This document shows, in pieces, positions 24,030-31,055 of a stretch of 64,000 nt of DNA (positions are counted from its first letter, which is position 1; the number at the start of each line of letters is the position of its first letter). Under the pieces are notes generated by a model. That model ran no database searches, was not told the origin of the DNA, and saw only the letters and a list, made by a program, of their open reading frames with translations. This DNA is from Bacilli bacterium (lineage in GTDB: Bacteria; Bacillota_I; Bacilli_A; Izemoplasmatales; Hujiaoplasmataceae): the NCBI GenBank assembly GCA_018399755.1, contig JAGYOE010000003.1:1-64000 (forward strand), given 5' to 3'. The translations under genes and the position numbers were made by a program.

Positions 24030-24088
24030 AGAAATTTTTAAATTAAATTGGCTTAAATTAGATAAAATTTTAAATATTTAAAATTAAA

Positions 24089-24140
24089 TAGATAAATATC
24101 TAATTTATTGTTTGACAATAGATAAATATCGTTGTATAAT
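24089..24140 (+). promoter_or_regulatory. Promoter of YW-peptide cassette 1 with flanking palindrome
   Basis: TTGACA (24112-24117), 17-nt spacer, TATAAT (24135-24140); TAGATA-AA-TATCTA palindrome at 24089-24102 with a second TAGATAAATATC copy at 24119 inside the spacer. Confidence 0.65.
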
Positions 24141-24215: not shown

Positions 24216-24350
24216 ATGACAAATAATAAATCAAAAATTAATATAAGCGGTATTTGTCCTAATGCTTACTGGGATCAATTCTATAAAGAATCATCAGCAA
24301 AATCTTATATTACAGAATTAAGAAAGAAAAATCAGTTATTAAATCGATAG
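24216..24350 (+). CDS. Short YW-core peptide 1 (44 aa), unknown function
   Basis: MTNNKSKINISGICPNAYWDQFYKESSAKSYITELRKKNQLLNR; SD AAAGGGG; shares core with the next two small ORFs. Confidence 0.65.
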   Translation: MTNNKSKINISGICPNAYWDQFYKESSAKSYITELRKKNQLLNR

Positions 24351-24377
24351 TTATAAAGTTTAAGGAGGGGTTTTAAA

Positions 24378-24485
24378 ATGAAATTTACAGAAATTAAAAA
24401 GGTATATATTCAAGGAATTAGTACAAATGATTATTGGGATCAATTTTATCAAGAACCTAAACAATCAAAAAAAATATGGAAATAA
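24378..24485 (+). CDS. Short YW-core peptide 2 (35 aa), unknown function
   Basis: MKFTEIKKVYIQGISTNDYWDQFYQEPKQSKKIWK; strong SD AAGGAGGGG. Confidence 0.68.
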   Translation: MKFTEIKKVYIQGISTNDYWDQFYQEPKQSKKIWK

Positions 24486-24511
24486 TCTTTATTAAATCAG
24501 GAGGAAATATT

Positions 24512-24619
24512 ATGAAATTTAATGGCCAAAATAAAACTGAAAAAATTCACGTATATAATTATAACTTTATTTGCCCTACTGAATATTGGGAACAATTTAA
24601 ATTTGATATTCAAAAATAA
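24512..24619 (+). CDS. Short YW-core peptide 3 (35 aa), unknown function
   Basis: MKFNGQNKTEKIHVYNYNFICPTEYWEQFKFDIQK; SD AGGAGG. Confidence 0.65.
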   Translation: MKFNGQNKTEKIHVYNYNFICPTEYWEQFKFDIQK

Positions 24620-24650: not shown

Positions 24651-24675
24651 AAGAAGAACCGGAAGGTTCTTCTTT
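24651..24675 (+). terminator. Terminator/attenuator-like hairpin between peptides and MFS gene
   Basis: AAGAAGAACC-ggaa-GGTTCTTCTT perfect 10-bp stem with U-rich 3' arm. Confidence 0.55.
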
Positions 24676-24724: not shown

Positions 24725-25477
24725 ATGAATGTGAAATTATTAAAAAATAAAAACTATATGTTAGTTGTATTAGGTAATTTTGTTTCACTTTTGGGGAGCA
24801 ACATTCAACAATTTGTTTTATCATTATATGTATTAGCTTTAACTGGCTCGGCAACCCTATTTGCATCAATGTTGGCTATATCAATTTTGCCGAGAATTAT
24901 ACTTTCTCCAATTGCAGGAGTTTTTGGGGATTGGTTTAATAAAAAGAAATCAATTGTTATTTTGGATATAGTTAATGCGATAGTTATAGCAGGATTTGCG
25001 GTAATGTTATTTTATAATGAAGTATTAACTATAGGGTGGATCTACTTACTAATAGTTTTGTTAGAAATAACAGAAATATTTTTTCATTCTTCAATGTCAG
25101 CAGTTATTCCAAGTATTGTTGAAAAAGATCAGTTATTAGAAGCAAATTCACTTAGAACAATGGTTGTCTCTTTTGGTCAACTTATGGCACCAATTATAGG
25201 GGCTTTAATTTATGGGATATTTGGCTTGTTAATTGCTTTGATTATTAATGCTATTAGTTTTTTACTATCTGCAATAAGCGAATTATTTATTGTTGTTCCT
25301 AAGAGCATTAGTGAAGATAATCAACGTTCGATTAAAGGTTTTAAAAAAGATGTCAAAGAAGGATTCAAGTTAATTAAAAATAGCAAACCAATCCGTACTT
25401 TAATCGCAATTGGGATATTTTGGCTACCAAGAAAATTTAAAAAATTAGATAACATCTATTTTTTTCTTGATATCTGA
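24725..25477 (+). pseudogene. MFS transporter, 3'-truncated (cassette copy 1)
   Basis: 250 aa, MFS N-terminal half (LGNFVSLLGSNIQQFVLSLYVLALTGSATLFASMLAISILPRIILSPIAGVFGDWFNKKK); reads directly into the promoter of the second cassette. Confidence 0.7.
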
Positions 25478-25495
25478 TAGATTTCGTTGTATTAT
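25467..25495 (+). promoter_or_regulatory. Promoter of decayed YW-peptide cassette 2
   Basis: TTGATA-17 nt-TATTAT; spacer TCTGATAGATTTCGTTG and downstream ATAATTGT match cassette 1 promoter (..ATCGTTGTATAATGTAATTGT). Confidence 0.55.
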
Positions 25496-25553
25496 ATAAT
25501 TGTCTTAAAAGAAAGACGGGTTAATGTAAAAAAGATTTTTAAGGTGGAAGAAA

Positions 25554-25915
25554 ATGAAATTAAGAGAAGAAAAAAGTTTATGTCAACTAAAATGAATCAG
25601 AAATGATTACTGGCACAATTTTACCAAGATTCAAATCACAAAAATATTTGGAAATAAGTAAGTAATGGATATAGAGGGCAAGACAATGAAATCTTTGAGA
25701 GAAGAAAAAAGAGTTTATGTCAATTATTTAAATCCAAGTGATTAATACAACAATTTGATCAAGATCCAAAGTAAAAGAATTTTCCTGGAGATAACGAGTG
25801 TTTTTTATTATTAGGGGAATGAATCATGGCATTTAAAAAATAATTATAAAAGACGATAAAAAGTATACGAATTATATGAATCCAGTTGATTATTGGCAAC
25901 AGTTTTATCGTCAGC
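25554..25915 (+). pseudogene. Three decayed YW-core peptide genes (cassette copy 2)
   Basis: Frame-corrected fragments NDYWHNFYQDSNHKNIWK*, KRVYVNYLNPSD*, and YTNYMNPVDYWQQFYRQP*YNKQLWK*, each about 35 codons and in the same order before an MFS remnant. Confidence 0.65.
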
Positions 25916-25965
25916 CGTAATATAATAAACAATTATGGAAATAAGATTTTTAAGAAGGTTAACTT

Positions 25966-27276
25966 ATGAATAAACAATTACCAAAATAAAATTATATGTT
26001 AGTTGTTCTGGTACTCCCCGCAAATAATAATGGGCGTAATATACAACAATTTGTTTTATTACTGTATGTACTTGCTTTAACAGGATCCTAACCTTACTTG
26101 CATCCAGTGTTAGCCATATCGATATTACCAAGAATTTTTCTATCACCGATATCGGTGGTGTGCATTTTGCAGATTGGTTTGATAAAAAGAAATCAATCAT
26201 TATTCTTGATTTAATCAATGCCTTTGTTTAATTTCTGGTTTTGCAGTTTACTTATATTTCAATGAATCTCAACGGCTGGTCTTATTTACTTATTGGTTAT
26301 ATTGTTAGAAATTACTGGAAATCTTTTCCATTCATCAATGTCTGGCTGTAATGCTAAGTGTTGTTGAAAAAGATCATCCGGAAGCAAACTCGCCCAGAAC
26401 CATGTTAGTTTCATTGGTCAATTAATGGCGCCAATTTTTAGGCATTAATATTTGGAGCCTTTATTCATTTGTCGCAATCATTATCAATGCATTTACTTTC
26501 TTGTTTTCTCGTAATCAGGTGAGATGTTTGGCTCATGTGCCTAAATCTAAGAGTGAGGATAATGTTAAACTTTGTCAGCTTTAAAAGGATTTGTTTAGTG
26601 GCTTAAAATTATCAAAGAATCTAAACCGATTCTAACCATTATATCAATGTATAACCATTATTAACTTTTAGCATTGCACCACTATTGCTACCTTTTATTT
26701 TCTTGGTAAGGGAAGTTCTCTTTACAACTTGAACATACTAATTAGGGAATCTTCTACAAACAGTCTTAATTAGCCTCAATGATTGGGTCGCGCCTTTGTT
26801 ACTTATAAAAGCAAAGCCTAAAAGAAATGAAATTAGGCGATGTGTTGGCTAAATCATTTCGATTATTGGTCTATTGATTATGCCTATTTCTATAACCATC
26901 CACCAACTCAATATTCTCTCGTATGATGGCTTGCTTCTTATATGATTGTTTTGCTATTTGTTTTATCATTGGCGTTTTTGTCACTGCGGTCAATATCGCT
27001 GTTCAAACCTTGTTTCAAAAACATCGTGCCTATGGAATATATGGGGGAGAACTCAATACCCGGTTTAAAGTTTACAGCGATTGCACCTAATTGACAAATG
27101 ATTTTTGGTTACTTATATGATATAATAAATCCAGGACTTGTTGTTATATTAAAATGGTTTCATCATTATCATGGTTGTGATTATTTATTATAAACGCATG
27201 CATCAAATTGAAACCTACAATCCAAAAGAAATCAAAGAGAAAATACTTCCAAAGAAGAGTGGCCTTAAACGAAATT
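25966..27276 (+). pseudogene. MFS transporter remnant (cassette copy 2), multiply frameshifted
   Basis: YMLVVLV..NIQQFVLLLYVLALTGS, ASSVSHIDITKNFS, DWFDKKKSIIILDLINA fragments nearly parallel copy 1; ends VVIIYYKRMHQIETYNPKEIKEKI. Confidence 0.75.
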
Positions 27277-28416
27277 CAATTTAATGAAGATGTTTCAAAA
27301 TATATGATTATTTGTTGTTCCTAAGGATTTTTTCTATCAAAAGAATACTAAGATAGTGAAAGATGATGAGTTAAAAACTTTATTCATATGAGTCTTGTAT
27401 TTAGATTTATGTAAATTTAATGAAAACTAAAACCTTATGAGTAGGCCTTCAGCTGGACACTACCAAAAAGATGTCTATTCAAGTTATGATTATCCAAATA
27501 TTTTAATGAGTGCATTTCCTGTTGATGATTATTCCGGGATGACACAAGTATCTCTAGTATATCATTTCATTGGATGATCAAGTCTTTAAAGATAAATTAG
27601 TCAGCGTTGATTACTATGGATTGATGGATGAAGCAGAAGAAAATGATTTAGGTGACTTAAATGCGACGGATTATATCAATAACCTAAAAATTGACTCACA
27701 CAATGGATCATTTAGCTTTGTCCAAACCTCAAACACATTTTTGAAGATTGTCAATTTTCTTAAAACAATTTTGAAACCGCTCTTTAGTATGCAATATATA
27801 TAAGGATTTTGTCGATCAAGTTAAAAGCATTTGGATGTTTCTAAACGATTATCAAAAACATATTGAGTCTCTTAAGAAAATCACATAATTTGAATTAATT
27901 ATAATTTGAATGGATCCTGTTAATATGTAATTTTCGTGGCAATTCGCTTATATTCTATATTCATTAGTGCTAAAGGCGATTGTGCCATTGTTTGGGGGAG
28001 AATATAACCGGAGTTTTCATTTGCAAAAGACTGAGATTAATTGGAAAATCAATTAGCTCAGGCAGAGTTAAGATATCTCAAGTTCTTTGTGAGAGATAAA
28101 AAATCATGTTGCCAGTTCCAAAATGATTCGTGAATGGGACTTATCCAAGAAGGTCATGTTCGAGAGTCAGAGGCATCAGTGCTACGATTTCAAATTTATA
28201 ATAGTTTTAATCCTAACTGTAGTAATATCATAATTTTCAACTAAAGAAAGAAAGAAGTGTTCTGTTATAAAATAGATTTGAAATTAAACAAGTCACCAAA
28301 ACTTCTGTAGCGAAGATTTCAAATTTTCAATGAAATAATATAACAGGTATAGAGATTATACTCTATATCATTTTTCTTTAATATGATTTACGAAGATGGA
28401 ACATAGGGAGGCTACA

Positions 28417-28938
28417 ATGTCGATAAAAGAAATTGACAAAAATGAAGATCCATTATTAAAAAATTATATTGAAGATGCTGAAACAGGACTGGTAAGAAAC
28501 AGCTAATGTAATTAAGGTTCATAGTTTAAAACCTCAAATGATTAAAGGCCCATATGCTTATAAGGAAACGCCCGCGTTTGGAGAGAGTGGTTTATCAAGA
28601 GGGCAAAGAGAAATGATAGGGTAAAGGTGGTTTCATCAACAAACCAATGCCCATATTGTACAAGCCATCATGGAGAGGCCACATCATATCAACGAAAATC
28701 AGAGTTAGTTAGAAAAGGGTTGCCTCAGATTACCATTCAAATTCTTTAAATGAAAAGACTGATGATTTGTGTCTATAGTGAAAATTAAATCTCCAAGACC
28801 CTTATAAAATGCATGAGGGTGATATCCATAAATTGAGATCTGGTTTCTGTGATGAGGATATTTTAGATATCAATCAACAGTTTTTATTTTAATGGTGTTA
28901 ATAGGAACTGAAACCATGGATTGGGAGGATTTAGAATG
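28417..28938 (+). pseudogene. AhpD/carboxymuconolactone-decarboxylase-like peroxidase-related gene, decayed
   Basis: MSIKEIDKNEDPLLKNYIEDAETG, VHSLKPQMIKGPYAYKETPAFGESGLSRGQREMI, VSSTNQCPYCTSHHGEA (CxxC-x3-H motif) in shifting frames. Confidence 0.7.
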
Positions 28939-29785
28939 AATCAAATGATTTAAACTGAAGTAGCTATTATCAAATCCAGGTAATGGGAGTCCATTGATAT
29001 ACTAGATCATAAATATTTAAGAATCATCAAAGAAGCAGTCTTTAATATTTCTTAAGCAAGAGAAAGAGATATTCGATCAAGCAAACAGGATTTTTGTTTA
29101 TCCTAATAATATGTATTCAGTTCAAGGAGATATTCTTTATGGCTATATAAAGCACTTCAGATCAAGAACTGCAGTAATTTAATACTCTCAAGCCTTTCCT
29201 CAAATACTCAGATAAATTAAACCTCCAGGAGAATATTCTAAGTATGCTTGAAAAATATATTAAACAACAAGTGTTTGAATCTCATTTGATTGATGACTTA
29301 GGTTTTTGATATAGACAAAATTGAAGTTAATGACATGCAAATGAAGTGGCTTTGTTCCTTATATTGTCTTTAAATCTTAGGAGACTTTTGGAAAGAGTGC
29401 ATATGAGTTTATGGTAATGACCAAAGAATCTTTTATCTTGATGCTTTCATATGCTTGACAAACCTTGAATTGAAGCAAAAGTTTTGAAACTGCTTTAGAA
29501 GAAATCATTGAATTAGCACCCACCAGCCGAAAGAATCCTAAAAATGGCCATTAAAATGTAAAGATATTGATGACTTTATTGATGGATATGCTGGAAGGGC
29601 TTGTCCAGCCTAAACACGCCTACCAGTCATCTTTCATTTGTTGTATCATCAGTCTTCATCAGCAGCAATTGAGTGAATGCTCATTGAGTGTTTTTAAATT
29701 TATAGAGCCTTGTTGTTGTGGGCGATTTTATCAAAAGTATACGATATTCCAAAAGCATGGAAGAATAATTTAGTTAAAAAATAAC

Positions 29786-30660
29786 ACTTCTTGTCCTTTA
29801 CTCTGCTTGTAGTAAAGCAAGTATTTCATCTTCTTCAAGTAGTTTTCCACTAGCAACAACTTCTTCTTTTTCATCAATGACAAATCCCCTGGTGTTTGTG
29901 TAATAGGTTGTACTTTGATATCTCAAGATATCCGTTACCTTTTCAACCCTTTTGCATCGAAATCATTTTCTAAAATGACTTTTTAATTCTTTTCGCCTTA
30001 CCATTTTGCATCCAGATCCTAATACTTTAATCCATTGTCTTTGTCTTTATATAAATATATGTTCAAATAAATTAAATAGATAAATCGCGTGATAATGATC
30101 TGCCGTAACAATACCAACAAATGTTCCATGAGTTTCCATTTAACAACTTTAATAATATCAGTGATGGTAAGCCTAAGTGCAGTGAATTGCCATCATAAAT
30201 GCAAAAGGGGACTGTACTGATTCCAACACCCTTATAAACGAGTGGTTTGTTAATTGGCAGGAAGCAAAGATGTCCGTGACATACATTGGTATTCCGACAA
30301 TTGTATGATTATCACTGGAAATGGATTATCATCACCAAGAACAGTTTGTATCCATGTTTCGAATGCATCCGTGAATAACAGCACCTATTCCAACCCCAAT
30401 TAGTATATATATCCATACCCTTCAATGATTTCTTTAACTTGATCAATGGCATATTGACGTCTTTCTTTTTTGCTTAATTCAATCTCTTCACTGGATAGTT
30501 TCCTTGATCTCCGATGAAATTAGCAACATATTTTTCCATTTTAAATAATGAAATCATGGTTCCACTGATAACGGCAATCACAATGCCAACAAGGACATAT
30601 AATAGGCAACCGCCAGCCAAATATACCGGCAAGGAGAATAACCGATGCCAAATCAACTAA
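29786..30660 (-). pseudogene. ArsP/DUF318-like permease with C-terminal thioredoxin-like domain, decayed
   Basis: Reverse strand fragments GIPMYVTDIF, LPINKPLVYKGVGIS, PFAFMMA, TFVGIVTADHYHAIYLFNLFEHIFI, then IKVLGSGC...GFVIDEKEEVVASGKLLEEDEILALLQAE. Confidence 0.6.
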
Positions 30661-30984
30661 GGGGCATGGAAATCAAAAATGAAAATGTCACACCAACATT
30701 CAAGTTAATCCACTTGGTGAATCCAATAAAATTGGTATTGAAGAGCAGGAACAATGGTGTAATGGTACCCCACAAGGCAACGCTTACGATATTACTTTAA
30801 CACCTTTGATGTCGAGCAAAATCTTTGTTCTTCAAAATATGATTGACATAAGATGATAGATAGATTAATATTTATAGAAGTATAAAGATTTTGAATGAGA
30901 ATACAGACAAAGAAAGAGAAACTTTAAATAACAGGCTTGTTTCATCCATTCAAAGAGACGTAAGCAGATAAAGTCAAATCGACC

Positions 30985-31055
30985 GCCTTGTACGGTTCCG
31001 TACGCAGGGTGGTGTGAGAGGGACTAAATAAAAATAATTATTTAGTCTCTACTTA
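30985..31055 (+). mobile_element. Probable 3' end of a group II intron (remnant)
   Basis: CCGCCTTGTACGGTTCCGTACGCAGGGTGGTGTGAGAGGGACTAAATAA...TTATTTAGTCTCT resembles 3'-terminal intron sequence with a terminal stem-loop; no adjacent RT ORF. Confidence 0.45.

Follow-up and report, generated by a model that had tools for sequence, protein, structure and literature searches.

Small peptides with a YWxQF core at the head of MFS and VanZ operons in one Mycoplasmatota family

Three adjacent open reading frames (ORFs), P1-P3, in the window (the whole 64,000-nucleotide stretch of DNA analysed) belong to a real, previously unnamed family of 30-50-residue peptides. About 30 members were found here in at least eleven related genomes, and its range is restricted to three genera within a single taxonomic family. 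The peptides stand before two genes that are not homologous to each other and are both of the drug-efflux or envelope-stress type. They are probably built-in regulators or helpers of their operons and not secreted signals.

Results

Three peptide genes and their promoter

P1-P3 have 44, 35 and 35 codons, and a good Shine-Dalgarno (SD) sequence lies shortly before each. The features of this region are:

24088..24103, forward strand: operator-like palindrome ATAGATAAATATCTAA, directly 5' of the -35 box
24112..24140, forward strand: consensus sigma-A promoter TTGACA-N17-TATAAT, 12/12 match; 5' UTR of ~75 nt
24216..24350, forward strand: P1 peptide, 44 aa, core GICPNAYWDQF
24378..24485, forward strand: P2 peptide, 35 aa, core GISTNDYWDQF, C-terminal IWK
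24512..24619, forward strand: P3 peptide, 35 aa, core ICPTEYWEQF
24651..24674, forward strand: hairpin AAGAAGAACC-TTCC/GGAA-GGTTCTTCTT, between P3 and the MFS gene

P3 was taken to start at 24512; there is no good SD for the mechanical ORF start, 24476. The cores of P1, P2 and P3 align as GICPNAYWDQFYKE / GISTNDYWDQFYQE / FICPTEYWEQFKFD. ORF lengths, SD sites and the YW[DE]QF core are all as a sequence-only reading had described them, and the near-consensus sigma-A promoter that it placed upstream matches at every position. The IWK end of P2 is as in the MFS-linked peptides of the sister genus. The palindrome ATAGATAAATATCTAA also precedes the promoters of other peptide-MFS-ArsR operons and that of an MFS gene without peptides in genome G003. 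The hairpin has a poor U-tract on the forward strand and a terminator score only on the reverse strand; conservation was looked for in relatives and not found.

Membership and spread of the family

A search with P2 as the lone query recovered, at E ~1e-4, P1, the remnant at 25858-25941 and one more copy in this genome, the fourth (G000:C16, at a contig end, after uvrB). A profile of four sequences from this genome only retrieved homologues, with per-genome E values of 3e-9 to 5e-4, from another six genomes: all four remaining ones of the genus, of which two are single-contig, and two from a second genus. An improved profile added G023. Among 90 genomes of the order it gave no other credible match, the one match outside the family being weak and chance-like, and samples of the class and the phylum (~400 genomes each) gave none. 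A phage search yielded one chance-like match and a plasmid search none. Eleven near-identical copies matched in G457 are probably a repeat element. In a third genus, diverged relatives were found by position: [SN]PxxYWxSF in G013 (two copies) and G026, and YFES in G020. The only named matches in a scan of genome contigs were Mycoplasmatota bacterium strain zrk2 (CP076020) and the Tenericutes MAG GH50.

Pfam and NCBIfam, searched even at E <= 1, gave no credible match (best E 0.15, below the cut-off), so the earlier statement that the peptides belong to no recognised family stands. A literature search found no paper on this family.

Two operon types headed by the peptides

The VanZ type consists of uvrB followed by one to four peptides, a VanZ-family protein, a DUF2089 protein (Zn ribbon-HTH-SHOCT) and a SHOCT-like protein. 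It has its own promoter, TTGACA-N16-TATAAT, followed by a AAGGTGTAA-like sequence; a partial duplicate (G002:C80) lacks this clear promoter. The MFS type consists of one to three peptides, a 433-436-aa TIGR00900/Mef-like MFS transporter and a ~340-360-aa protein with a C-terminal ArsR HTH, and immediately 5' of the -35 box its promoters have the palindrome TTAGATAAATATCTAA, exactly or with one mismatch. With the exception of one locus, the peptides come first in the operon, ahead of the gene for the membrane protein. The gaps from peptide to next start are mostly short, and one vanZ start lies inside a peptide gene. In the predicted transcription units, short ORFs with SDs of their own thus lie directly 5' of resistance-type genes.

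In three genera the peptides are inherited vertically at a single chromosomal site, uvrB-vanZ. The MFS-linked peptides of zrk2 match VanZ-linked ones best, and copies have apparently been exchanged between the operon types. An orphan copy (L066 3823-3945, reverse strand; G002:C78) is preceded by genes for an HTH_3 regulator and a 120-aa protein; a terminator-like hairpin follows it, and then no gene. In another locus (L071, G003:C15:8765-9300), four tandem peptide ORFs precede VanZ; in the first and the fourth the YW core is gone (EQWHKF; DYRVKYY), with ORF and SD retained.

MFS-ArsR pairs also occur with no peptide, in G003 (with the same operator), G129, G162, G107, G223, G062 and G054. Unrelated small ORFs with strong SDs replace the peptides in G241, where a 36-aa ORF occupies the peptide position of the MFS-ArsR operon, and in G010, G014 and G021, as expected if position counts more than sequence. 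In other genera, unrelated fast-evolving ORFs of 49-79 aa with strong SDs head the operon of the VanZ C-terminal domain, DUF2089 and SHOCT proteins (L113, L115, L117, L118 and L121). VanZ and this domain are fused in three genera (L064 6183-7898 and orthologues, L113-L130); others of the family have two genes, with uvrB and VanZ overlapping and the C-domain-DUF2089-SHOCT genes after them, a clear case of fusion or fission.

A truncated and a decayed unit in the window

The window locus is of the MFS type and syntenic with that of zrk2: tex, a 233-aa membrane protein, tRNA-Ser, peptides, MFS and, further on, a zinc-ribbon protein. In zrk2 an insertion element lies between two peptide genes. The features downstream of P3 in the window are:

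24725..25477, forward strand: N-terminal half of a TIGR00900/Mef-like MFS, homologous to residues 1-231 of 436
25467..25495, forward strand: promoter remnant of a second, decayed unit
25554..25944, forward strand: three decayed peptide genes of the YW family, with stops and frameshifts
25963..27245, forward strand: decayed MFS gene of the second unit
27461..28028, forward strand: decayed ArsR-HTH regulator, the gene after MFS in relatives

The MFS transporter that the sequence-only reading placed beside the peptides is thus present as the MFS of their operon, but only as an N-terminal half: its homology, at 74% identity to the MFS of G023, ends at 25417, approximately where the second unit begins. 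Misassembly at this break may be involved, since the assembly consists of 76 contigs and is ~80% complete. The second unit was once complete and has decayed in its promoter, three peptide genes, MFS and ArsR. It is followed by permease and thioredoxin-like pseudogenes on the reverse strand, homologues of zrk2 genes, so that 25446-31000, second unit included, is a long pseudogene stretch within a small genome. P1-P3 are intact although the window MFS and ArsR are broken.

Selection and peptide properties

Most orthologue pairs have a dN/dS of 0.14-0.49; the exception is one small pair (P2 of the window versus G28m, 1.07). Selection is strongest on a block ending at Q[FL], defined as -8 to +3 around the W: dN/dS is 0.56 before the block, ~0.28 within it and 0.49-0.71 after it, where constraint relaxes. 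The W is at residue 19-32, often 22-23, and the 7-26 residues after it are free. Homologues in other genomes together with purifying selection bear out the proposal of a paralogous peptide family, and linkage to an MFS gene, named earlier as a further check, was found with both at five MFS loci.

Decay of the neighbouring unit, and the loss of the core from some orthologues (the first and fourth ORFs of G003), might suggest that the ORFs are spurious or decaying and share a core only through recent local duplication in a degenerating locus. This is very improbable. Homologues occur at orthologous positions in two further genera, dN/dS is well below 1 in most pairs, and SDs and promoters are conserved; for the family as a whole, the explanation is already contradicted.

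The peptides are highly hydrophilic (GRAVY -0.86 to -1.59), soluble and for the most part basic, with no signal sequence, an internal core and no conserved C-terminus. AlphaFold predicts a single low-confidence helix, residues 16-24, corresponding to the YWDQF core, with no confident fold (mean pLDDT 63.8). These properties bear on the idea that the peptides are secreted unmodified, as a leaderless bacteriocin of the LsbB kind or a pheromone, with the MFS as exporter and VanZ as an immunity-like protein. In its favour, the tandem paralogues are small and basic, have no leader and lie next to an efflux-type transporter; the LsbB family includes leaderless peptides of comparable length, 30 and 37 residues (PMC5413573), and the locus of enterocin DD14, with tandem 44- and 43-aa peptides, has a DUF2089-family gene (PMC7332713). 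However, their GRAVY of -0.9 to -1.6 compares with +0.20/-0.11 for EntDD14, no amphiphilic N-terminal helix is predicted, an exporter is absent from most VanZ-type operons, and the uvrB-vanZ site is vertically inherited in three genera. With the core internal, the C-terminus unconserved and the window MFS truncated, we consider secretion improbable. A leaderless bacteriocin was rejected as a candidate on hydropathy, the low-confidence single short helix and an unsuited context. The bacteriocin-like peptides suggested earlier therefore fit neither in composition nor in context, and secretion or signalling through the MFS fails as a general function: the peptides also head VanZ operons, most of them without an exporter, and close MFS-ArsR operons have no peptide.

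Tests of a leader-peptide mechanism

Masking the mRNA up to the presumed stall site freed the next SD by >=0.2 in 4 of 25 junctions (the window MFS, the G004 MFS, and the MFS and VanZ of G028), compared with 4 of 27 controls. In most loci the leader folds were not more stable than shuffled sequences. Attenuation by SD occlusion, or by anti-SD pairing with the core codons, gave no signal and was set aside. A rho gene was found in 0 of 9 genomes tested, with the control search positive in 8 of 14 known genomes, and a Rho-dependent mechanism like that of CruR was rejected for these rho-less genomes. RNase J was found in 9 of 9 genomes tested. The alignment contains neither the RAPP motif nor any other known arrest motif.

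Discussion

Our tentative preference is that P1-P3 are cis-acting leader peptides (regulatory uORFs) at the head of their operon, whose nascent chains control the downstream gene. The head position, the near-fixed distance from the N-terminus to the W, the free tail and the tight spacing speak for this. Regulatory leader peptides were among the options raised by the sequence-only reading and are now the best model, without the SD occlusion, conserved terminator or Rho tested for here. In the proposed mechanism, the peptides would be translated first from a strong, regulator-controlled promoter. Once ~20 residues occupy the tunnel and the [CS]PNxYWxQ[FL] block lies close to the peptidyl-transferase centre, the ribosome would slow or arrest in response to a toxic compound or to ribosome or membrane stress. 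The arrest would raise expression of the downstream membrane protein, a Mef-like MFS or VanZ. Given that we found no SD occlusion, no conserved terminator and no Rho, the arrest would most likely act by shielding the mRNA 5' end from decay, as for ermC, or through translational coupling. In B. subtilis, ermC mRNA is stabilised by stalled ribosomes (PMC7509114). Tandem copies could serve as repeated roadblocks.

Several observations speak against a leader function. No RNA attenuator and no known arrest motif turned up, a conserved palindrome is already present at the MFS promoter and an ArsR-type regulator in the operon, leader peptides do not usually come in two to four copies per operon, and the orphan copy has no downstream gene. 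Action in trans is almost as likely: the peptides may be short, basic, soluble intracellular proteins, co-induced with the operon, whose YWxQF helix binds a common partner, such as the MFS or VanZ protein, the DUF2089 or ArsR regulator, or the ribosome or membrane. Tandem multiplication, apparent exchange between operon types and the orphan copy fit trans action equally well. The individual SDs, purifying selection, divergence of the tandem paralogues, intact P1-P3 beside a broken MFS and ArsR, and the failure to find a cis read-out are further points in its favour. It accounts less readily for the strict operon-head position, the weakly constrained tails, the lack of a confident AlphaFold fold, the unrelated small ORFs that replace the peptides in relatives and the close MFS-ArsR operons with no peptide. 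A broader proposal, which taken as a whole is rather doubtful, is that the YWxQF peptides are modular nascent-peptide or small-protein regulators, interchangeable, arranged in tandem and plugged into unrelated efflux and envelope-stress operons; acting without RNA structure in rho-less Mycoplasmatota hosts, they would form a new class.

Under the cis-leader model, the closest likenesses are to Mef(E)L and ErmCL/ErmBL, the drug-inducible leaders of Gram-positive resistance genes, likewise short ORFs directly before an efflux or resistance gene. The window-type MFS is distantly Mef-like, and the likeness to ermC would lie in an output through mRNA stability. However, the peptides described here have 30-49 aa with an internal block conserved family-wide instead of a minimal stall motif, occur up to four in tandem, and head a VanZ operon as well. 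Unlike in ErmCL/MefEL attenuation, we found no conserved terminator/anti-terminator or SD-sequestering fold. The copper-responsive uORF CruR (DUF2946) is also a conserved small protein heading operons with different downstream genes, and it needs no riboswitch and lies in unstructured mRNA (PMC9426467). CruR depends on an arrest motif, RAPP, and on termination by Rho, whereas the YW peptides have no RAPP and their genomes no rho. LsbB-family and multi-peptide leaderless bacteriocins are alike in being 30-50 aa long, unmodified, leaderless, basic, in tandem and next to a transporter; the YW peptides are far more hydrophilic, with no predicted amphiphilic N-terminal helix and a core that is not C-terminal, at a vertically inherited locus whose exporter is absent in most VanZ-type cases. 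Membership in the leader-peptide, CruR or leaderless-bacteriocin families fails on the features tested. The VanZ type shares its DUF2089 and SHOCT-like proteins with the DUF2089/SHOCT-like/Toastrack envelope-stress operons (PSP-partner systems), and a search of passages of PMC11237479 turned up no small YW peptide of this kind.

With these peptides, a branch of Mycoplasmatota in which one sequenced strain, zrk2, has a complete chromosome gains a conserved small-protein family that had no annotation and whose genomic logic is clear. VanZ is known above all from glycopeptide resistance, and the source here is a wall-less-type bacterium. Should the peptides stall ribosomes, they would be tandem leaders that are common to unrelated operons and need neither attenuator RNA nor Rho. 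Should they act in trans, MFS and VanZ membrane proteins would gain a new accessory.
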